Shown: piece by piece, positions 50,539-51,433 of the stretch
Layout of the letters: every line of letters starts with the position of its first letter
Numbering within the stretch: the first letter of the stretch is position 1
Assembly (NCBI GenBank): GCA_944392295.1
Contig: CALXWE010000007.1
Span: 1 to 64,000, forward strand
Origin: an uncultured Alphaproteobacteria bacterium
Lineage (GTDB): Bacteria; Pseudomonadota; Alphaproteobacteria; RF32; CAG-239
Length of the DNA stretch: 64,000 nt
Direction: 5' to 3'
Made by a program: the position numbers and the translations under genes
The notes under the pieces: model-generated
Told to the model about the DNA's origin: nothing
Seen by the model: only the letters and a program-made list of their open reading frames with translations
Database searches by the model: none

Positions 50539-50769
50539 TTAAGGTTTGGGGTTATCAACCAAATTAATTTCCACTGCTTGATTATAAAAATCCAGCAACT
50601 TTTGATATTTGCGCCAATGGGCGCTTTTACAGCCGATTTCGATGCTGTCGAGTTCATGAACGGAAATATTAACGGATTTAGCAACATAAGCCAGATGCAG
50701 ATTTCTATCTTGGCGCGATTTAGTAAGTAACCGCCCTAACCTGCGGCGGATAACAGAATTTAATTTCAT
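50539..50769 (-). CDS. Tiny helix-turn-helix (XRE-like) protein
   Basis: A 76-residue protein, most of it an XRE/Cro-like helix-turn-helix: LGRLLTKSRQDRNLHLAYVA, then SVNISVHELDSIEIG and a final helix. It probably binds DNA as a small regulator. The ATG has GGAG 8 nt upstream. Directly upstream is a structured leader of about 160 nt with promoter and terminator, so expression may depend on read-through of that terminator. No toxin partner or prophage genes adjoin it. Confidence 0.65.
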   Translation of the reverse strand: MKLNSVIRRRLGRLLTKSRQDRNLHLAYVAKSVNISVHELDSIEIGCKSAHWRKYQKLLDFYNQAVEINLVDNPKP

Positions 50770-50787: not shown

Positions 50788-50956
50788 TGTTAAACAAAAC
50801 CGCTTTGAAAACTTCAAAGCGGGGAGCTAACAAACTGTCAGTATACAGTCAGGCTTATTCGCCGTAAACAAATACGCTTATTTCACCCACTCCCCTTAAT
50901 AAGGAGCTAATACTGAGATGTTTGTTAGACACCATCGCCAATCGGCGACAGTGTTC
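50788..50956 (-). ncRNA. Structured leader or small RNA upstream of the HTH gene
   Basis: Transcribed on the minus strand from about 50950. Pairings: a 5' hairpin (929-932 with 951-954 and 935-939 with 944-948, all +50000); a long-range 9-bp stem (50827-50835 with 50920-50928); an inner 6-bp stem (50839-50844 with 50910-50915); a CUCCUU hairpin inside; and a final 10-bp hairpin (50800-50809 with 50813-50822) followed by UUUUGUUU. That is a terminator about 20 nt before the ribosome site of the HTH gene. It is either an independent small RNA or a riboswitch-like leader. No known family was recognised. Confidence 0.6.
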
Positions 50957-50984
50957 ATATTAATTAAACTTACACATTTTGCAA
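50957..50984 (-). promoter_or_regulatory. Promoter of the structured RNA
   Basis: On the minus strand TTGCAA (50984-50979), 16-nt spacer, TAATAT (50962-50957). The predicted start is near 50950, exactly at the 5' hairpin. Confidence 0.55.
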
Positions 50985-51043: not shown

Positions 51044-51433
51044 TTATTCTTTGGTCAATCTTTCAACGTCTAATTTTCTGTGCTCAAAATCTTTATCGAT
51101 TTCGCCGGTAATAACTACCGTATCACTCGGACTTACGGTTTGTCCGGCCCAAACTTTTTTACCGATTTCAACCGTCATTTCACCCGTTGCATCCTTAAAA
51201 ATATACTTATCTTTTTTTACCTGCTTTTCAATGTTGCCTTTTAAGGTAACTATTGCATCATCAGGCATTCCCATAGCTTGTTTTACGGTCGAAATATCCG
51301 CCTGAGATTGTACAAATCCACCCATATCGCGATGCATCATTTTCATACAATCTTCATAATCGCACTTGGCAAATGCCGCACCAGAAGCAGCTACCGTTAA
51401 AGCCGTTGTTAAAGCTAAAAGTTTTTTGTTCAT
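51044..51433 (-). CDS. YgiW/YdeI-type OB-fold (BOF) periplasmic protein
   Basis: A 129-residue protein with a signal peptide (cleavage after AAFA, about 22) and a BOF (bacterial OB-fold) domain: VTLKGNIEKQVKKDKYIFKD, then ATGEMTVEIGKKVWAG and TVVITGEIDKDFE. These are close to YgiW and YdeI, periplasmic stress-tolerance proteins. An N-terminal insert with two cysteines (KCDYEDC) precedes the domain. A ribosome site AAGGAGA is present. Confidence 0.85.
   Translation of the reverse strand: MNKKLLALTTALTVAASGAAFAKCDYEDCMKMMHRDMGGFVQSQADISTVKQAMGMPDDAIVTLKGNIEKQVKKDKYIFKDATGEMTVEIGKKVWAGQTVSPSDTVVITGEIDKDFEHRKLDVERLTKE

Follow-up and report, generated by a model that had tools for sequence, protein, structure and literature searches.

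Does the DNA between a tiny HTH gene and its upstream neighbour encode a structured RNA, and does such an RNA serve as the leader of that gene, as a riboswitch or as a free regulator? The locus lies in the window, the whole 64,000-nt stretch of alphaproteobacterial DNA that was analysed. The original prediction had read it as a leader RNA or small RNA controlling the HTH gene, with the architecture of a riboswitch or of a stand-alone regulatory RNA and with no known family recognised.

Locus and structure of the RNA

On the minus strand, from 50984 to 50796, a promoter, a leader of ~160 nt and a terminator are found, with the ribosome site of the HTH gene next. The sigma70-like promoter (50984-50957) consists of a -35 element TTGCAA (50984-50979), a 16-nt spacer and a -10 element TAATAT (50962-50957), and its sequence predicts a transcription start near 50950. 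The promoter score was 9.95 in 110 homologues compared with 8.57 for shuffled upstream regions, and in most of these homologues the -10 element ended 0–1 nt before the start of the RNA model, which spans 50955-50796 in the window. Twelve nucleotides separate the terminator end from the ribosome site AAGGAG (50783-50778) of the 76-aa XRE-like HTH gene (50539..50769, minus strand). Only 26 nt lie between the first U-run and the ATG. A second promoter would not fit there, which leaves a single putative promoter in front of leader and gene alike, and expression of the HTH gene should therefore require read-through. A terminator-like hairpin of its own, at about 51021-50993, follows the upstream ORF (51044-51433, minus strand), in agreement with the original prediction.

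The minimum-energy fold of the RNA reached -61.4 kcal/mol (z = -5.3 against dinucleotide shuffles, 0/200 of which folded as well) and includes the 5' hairpin, a 9-bp stem, a nested stem, an internal hairpin and the terminator. The elements named in the original prediction (promoter, 5' hairpin, 9-bp stem, nested 6-bp stem, internal hairpin and terminator) are all present on the minus strand, but its list lacked a pseudoknot at the terminator base and two loop-bearing hairpins, P1b and P7.

The helices, all on the minus strand, were each compared across homologues. P1, the 5' hairpin of the fold (CACUGUCGCC/GGCGAUGGUG, 50953-50930), was 99.2% paired in its upper six pairs, with double changes at each, and poorly paired in the lower ones. 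The P1b hairpin GGUGU/ACAUC (50933-50917) carries a 7-nt loop CUAACAA (50928-50922), which is target segment b and the 5' strand of P2; it has at least 4 bp in 154/156 homologues, with the consensus GGNGU/ACNCC (own versus swapped partners, 0/5000). P2, the long-range 9-bp stem, joins 50928-50920 with 50835-50827, its 3' strand GUUUGUUAG (50835-50827) being recognition segment b'; b/b' was 97.4% paired and all seven core pairs showed double changes. The nested P3, a stem of 6–7 bp between UCAGUAU (target segment c, 50916-50910) and 50844-50838, was 96.7% paired with double changes at every core pair. Its 3' strand is recognition segment c', which forms the loop AUACUGA (50844-50838) of the P7 hairpin ACUGU/ACAGU (50849-50834), and P7 has at least 4 bp in 156/156 homologues, with ACUAU/AUAGU, ACCAU/AUGGU or GCCGU/ACGGU in distant members. 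In the P5/P6 arm (50888-50851), every pair of P5 showed double changes, with 100% pairing. The internal loop of the arm, GAAAUAAG (50884-50877) opposite GCGAAUAA (50862-50855), has the consensus GANAUAAG/NCGAAUAA, which is near-invariant across the order while the surrounding helices vary freely, and which may resemble two back-to-back UAA/GAN motifs.

One strand has two predicted partners. The purine-rich 3' strand (50895-50890) of the local hairpin P4 (CUCCUU/GGGGAG, 50906-50890) can alternatively pair with CUCCCC (50826-50821) at the terminator base, forming the closing pseudoknot (GNGGAG with CUCCNC). Both pairings covary (own versus swapped partners, 0/5000 each), and since each does so with the common strand GNGGAG, two covarying partners compete for it. 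The variable position of the pseudoknot is G-C in 61 cases, A-U in 24, U-A in 13, C-G in 7, a wobble in 8 and a mismatch in 1. CUCCCC shares 2 nt (50822-50821) with an arm of the intrinsic terminator (CCGCUUUGAA/UUCAAAGCGG followed by UUUU, 50822-50796), a 10-bp hairpin whose stem was 98.6–98.9% paired with compensation, and this overlap is likewise 2 nt in 47/62 copies. A conserved mini-ORF GTG AAA TAA after the purine-rich strand was considered and rejected, since some copies, among them c4 and c10, no longer have its start codon.

Compensatory variation, which the original prediction had named as its own test, was overwhelming. In alignments that were fitted to the model and hence lean towards it, the nested structure of 62 distinct copies was 95.8% paired, compared with 68% in shuffles and 39–48% in slid controls, with compensatory double changes at 47/51 pairs, and the fuller structure including the pseudoknot, P1b and P7 was 95.6% paired compared with 38–52% in slid controls. 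The swap tests on pseudoknot/P4 and on P1b depend less on this fitting, and the permutation tests leave the relatedness among the sequences in place. The RNA is not a chance fold because it recurs 12 times in the genome with strong covariation, and it almost certainly represents a real structured RNA family.

Copies, distribution and downstream genes

A DNA search of the window genome (G000; 1.43 Mb, 24 contigs, 99% complete) found 10 copies, the other nine being 69–87% identical, and the covariance model found 12; a thirteenth, weak match falls between two of the copies, on the other strand. The original prediction was right about the leader but described as a single element before the HTH gene what is one of many paralogues, found also before pilin and surface-protein genes, and the other 11 copies in the genome escaped it. 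The copies are scattered between unrelated (housekeeping) genes, and their b and c sequences vary. Behind most lies a 76–88-aa HTH gene, either immediately or with a second, tandem RNA in between, and others reach contig ends. Contigs end within a few hundred bases of a copy at the end of C12, the start of C10 and C6:106777-106934, so the counts of copies, and of genes following the copies there, may be too low.

Model R1 detected the RNA in at least 114/152 genomes of the same GTDB family. Model R2, built from 62 copies, detected it in at least 133/153 genomes and 15/17 genera of the order, which we take to be the group often called RF32, with up to at least 19 copies per genome, and model R3 in at least 32/385 genomes sampled evenly over the class Alphaproteobacteria. 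Gut-dwelling alphaproteobacteria carry several to a dozen or more copies per genome, and the named records with the motif, among the matches listed, were all MAGs of uncultured Alphaproteobacteria or Proteobacteria, many labelled rumen or gut. The main text of a human-microbiome RNA survey (PMC8040213) contains no such RNA group.

The 76-aa HTH protein matched HTH_31 with an E value of 4.6e-4, a match that falls short of the Pfam cut-off, and an HTH paralogue at C9 passed the cut-off for HTH_25. It has one close paralogue in the genome (87% identical), likewise located behind an RNA copy. An independent search with the HTH protein led to loci in other genera, most of which had the RNA just upstream. 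At loci selected by the RNA alone, an ATG with a ribosome site usually lies 20–45 nt past the terminator, in some cases up to about 170 nt. A crude rule sorted 78 distinct downstream proteins into 43 small cytoplasmic ones (mostly HTH), 28 with a signal-peptide-like start, 5 pilin-like and 2 others, and Pfam assigned HTH families and 16 BspA-type LRR_5 proteins. We consider it very probable that the RNA is the leader of the gene that follows it; the reading as a leader RNA or small RNA of the tiny HTH gene is supported, and its position suggests that the leader controls this gene.

A diverged copy (L077:364-558, equal to G000 C6:16105-16299) stands directly before a PilS/Bundlin-type pilin gene, and distant families also contain pilin genes with a leader of this kind (L185, L192).

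Probable kinship with sRNA-Xcc1 and phage C4 RNAs

An Rfam scan of the window gave 0 matches at Rfam's own thresholds and nothing convincing at E values up to 10. To that extent the statement that no known family was recognisable holds, but the RNA is not wholly new, as it appears to be a diverged relative of sRNA-Xcc1 (RF02221). The Rfam model of that family spans only the 3' 87 nt and has a gathering cut-off of 53 bits; a search with it gave 0 matches in the window genome, window copies included, and in G001. Among distant relatives, the Rfam scan placed two above this cut-off (G407, 66.2 bits; G348, 56.2 bits) and several below. The RF02221 search also matched many places in G440 and three in G011, a genome of the window's own GTDB family, two of these three being found in the direct Rfam scan as well. 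The same loci, including the three in G011, were matched by R3 and by RF02221.

The consensus helices of RF02221 comprise the closing pseudoknot as outer stem, the P5/P6 arm and P7, all three of which covary in the window family, so that this part of the structure is backed by an independent alignment. Homology of the window RNA to RF02221 is likely, and we hold it with good confidence; by the Rfam threshold the RNA is not a member of that family but a relative, through apparent homology via intermediates. It is like sRNA-Xcc1 in its closing pseudoknot stem, its P5/P6 arm with a related conserved loop, its P7 hairpin and its place just before a gene. It is unlike sRNA-Xcc1 in that the window branch has P4, a strong terminator and other downstream genes, and lacks a ribosome-site target. 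sRNA-Xcc1 is located upstream of symE in Xanthomonas integrons (PMC12444791) and is multi-copy in some genomes, e.g., Xylella (PMC12189769). An sRNA-Xcc1 tabulated near position 1392052 of E. coli EDL933 (PMC5331693) was not confirmed in the stretch searched (L220, 1389500-1394500), in which only sok was found; the site is next to a hok/sok locus, within a prophage in which an ant gene also occurs.

In Haemophilus phage Aaphi23 an RF02221-like RNA immediately precedes ant, and in Vibrio phage VPBES one precedes a small gene. Searches of IMG/VR with the exact window-type pattern and with a gapped RF02221 pattern returned none, and simpler core patterns returned 120 and 27 stretches. In 96 distinct ORF-containing IMG/VR stretches, the loop of P7 and the 3' strand of P2 had complementarities of 6.78 and 6.46 nt to their own upstream region (4.57 and 4.64 when swapped) and of 6.47 and 6.22 nt to their own ribosome-site region (4.14 and 4.34 when swapped). 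All four comparisons gave 0/1000 permutations each, and dinucleotide shuffles agreed. Sampled downstream genes in phages encode antirepressor-type domains (KilA-N, Bro-N, P22_AR_N, AntA or Rha-like).

The C4 antisense RNA binds with two loops upstream of and at a ribosome site (PMC5320573, PMC12197685), and the measured complementarities make a C4-like layout of the phage RF02221 branch a well-founded, likely reading. This layout is unmentioned in the open-licence papers found that name sRNA-Xcc1. As in C4 of phages P1/P7 (RF01695) with its targets c4-a1b1 (RF03163), a leader-derived RNA carries two recognition segments with matches upstream in the same leader, and only in the phage relatives do these segments also match the ribosome site of an antirepressor-type gene. 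In the window family, b/b' and c/c' covary, so two segments are complementary to upstream leader segments there too: the predicted 3' half combines an sRNA-Xcc1-like fold with recognition segments c' and b', and the 5' half holds the matching b and c. In its 5' half, one bridging copy shows a sub-threshold similarity to c4-a1b1 (30.2 bits, cut-off 46.7), and no Rfam scan matched RF01695. Unlike C4, the window branch has a terminator instead of a ribosome-site target. Its own ribosome-site complementarity was 4.69/3.74 compared with 4.70/3.66 for swapped pairs, close to shuffles, which argues against an own-specific target, and a terminator-like hairpin was present in 88/110 window-branch RNAs compared with 5/96 phage relatives. 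Among the bridging copies, most of which come from G440, the ends are terminator-like, and no ribosome-site target was detected. From these comparisons we infer a shift from translational antisense control to terminator control, and we assume that its direction was from phage to chromosome.

Two further systems are comparable. The Group 1 C4-like sRNAs of A. baumannii are also phage-type antisense RNAs with many chromosomal copies and a variable recognition loop (PMC5320573), but they are C4 proper and not sRNA-Xcc1-like, and the window copies are tied tightly to the downstream gene by the terminator. In IsrK of prophage Gifsy-1, a leader terminator is read through into an antirepressor operon, and the short form of the RNA targets the long form in trans, competing for the partners with which its own sequence pairs (PMC4825925); on the side of the differences, no sequence or Rfam relation to IsrK was detected, and IsrK activates translation.

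Proposed control of the HTH gene and alternatives

We lean towards reading the RNA as a cis-acting leader of the HTH gene, a diverged, multi-copy chromosomal relative of the C4-like phage sRNA-Xcc1 leaders that would be controlled at its terminator. Most transcripts would stop there, giving a stable RNA of about 155 nt, and the HTH gene would be expressed by read-through only. The closing pseudoknot would take the bottom G-C pairs of the terminator beside the U-run and thereby favour read-through, and formation of P4 would leave the terminator intact. The b/b' and c/c' pairings would set the balance between P4 and the pseudoknot, either within one molecule or, as in phage C4 and IsrK, between a completed short RNA and a leader still being transcribed. 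Since the copies carry different b/c codes, a short RNA acting in trans would give copy-specific autoregulation, and the differing b/c sequences would keep paralogues from cross-reacting. This mechanism is drawn from the strand common to P4 and the pseudoknot, the terminator overlap, and the C4 and IsrK precedents (PMC5320573, PMC4825925).

Read-through control by P4 versus pseudoknot in the window is a tentative proposal, to which we give slightly less than an even chance, and action of the short RNA in trans we consider rather doubtful. The pseudoknot and terminator overlap by just 2 nt in most copies, so the effect on termination may be small, and the window branch has no own-specific ribosome-site target, so one cannot simply assume that it acts as C4 does. 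The near-invariant internal loop is unexplained by the read-through model.

That loop (GANAUAAG/CGAAUAA) would be a ligand pocket if the RNA were a metabolite or second-messenger riboswitch in which binding shifts P4 against the terminator-base pseudoknot. A multi-pseudoknot fold with a near-invariant loop, and a conserved structured leader with two mutually exclusive covarying pairings beside a terminator as expression platform, would suit such a switch. The downstream genes share a theme (pilins, surface LRR proteins and regulators) that would resemble a cyclic-di-GMP regulon; cyclic-di-GMP riboswitches are leaders of pilins, surface proteins and regulators, with many per genome. Cyclic-di-GMP itself fits poorly as the ligand, as checked indirectly by GGDEF distribution: the RNAs occur in G054 and G060, which have no detectable GGDEF, and none occur in the GGDEF-rich G074, G075 and G101. 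Unlike those riboswitches, the RNA has no Rfam match and does not follow GGDEF proteins in its distribution. The downstream genes show no enzyme or transporter theme that would suggest a metabolite, and the same loop region is present in phage relatives with ribosome-site targets, whose design is explained by base pairing and not by a ligand. The riboswitch architecture named in the original prediction is therefore conceivable for a metabolite sensor, yet the phage relatives point elsewhere, and we regard a riboswitch as unlikely.

Independence from the following gene would be expected of a stand-alone sRNA acting in trans on other mRNAs, a reading for which the RNA's own promoter and terminator speak, as do tandem copies that each have their own promoter. 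It also has a precedent in sRNA-Xcc1, which Northern blot and RACE revealed as an 88-nt RNA (PMC2996969) and which a 2011 paper, listed among the references of PMC12444791, calls trans-acting in its title. Across many genera, however, most loci have a gene with its ribosome site close behind the RNA, an arrangement that a free sRNA would not need, and the recognition segments have their matches inside the same RNA, so this reading seems improbable to us. RNA and gene might also form a small mobile cassette in which the RNA mainly serves spread or maintenance: copies are dispersed among unrelated housekeeping genes, several contig ends fall near copies, and relatives occur in phages and integron cassettes (PMC12444791). 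Strong selection on pairing in every copy and the unrelated gene classes that the RNA precedes both argue against a cassette, which we consider very improbable.

Alphaproteobacteria may have turned a phage immunity RNA of the C4/sRNA-Xcc1 type, which restrains antirepressors, into chromosome-wide, individually coded leaders of pilins, BspA-like surface proteins and small regulators, and phage sRNA-Xcc1 may itself be an antisense leader of the C4 kind, with a 5' half and targets that had been overlooked; we give this combined picture an even chance. The RNA family adds a large and so far uncatalogued branch of structured RNAs that stands, many times per genome, before surface and pilus genes of uncultured gut and rumen Alphaproteobacteria. 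RF02221, known from phages, integrons and plant pathogens, has so far been treated as a trans-acting sRNA of uncertain role, and the phage layout would offer sRNA-Xcc1 a testable function, antisense control of antirepressor synthesis. Because the b/c codes differ between copies, the model is directly testable with a few base changes.

G440 carries 27 RF02221-like copies, several of them before a conserved 46-aa ORF (MTDKSKTSSPITERDFRRLVDLLNVYLGLSQRKRRLLLQLVQALAK) or a ~120-aa XRE regulator. Tandem RNA copies before one gene occur in the window genome (C6:71781-72164 and C12:36009-36390) and elsewhere (L012:804-1464 and L074:1501-1931); the arrays comprise two copies, or three in L012. In both arrays of the window genome the downstream copy has its own -35 and -10 elements, and remnants of ribosome sites lie between the copies.
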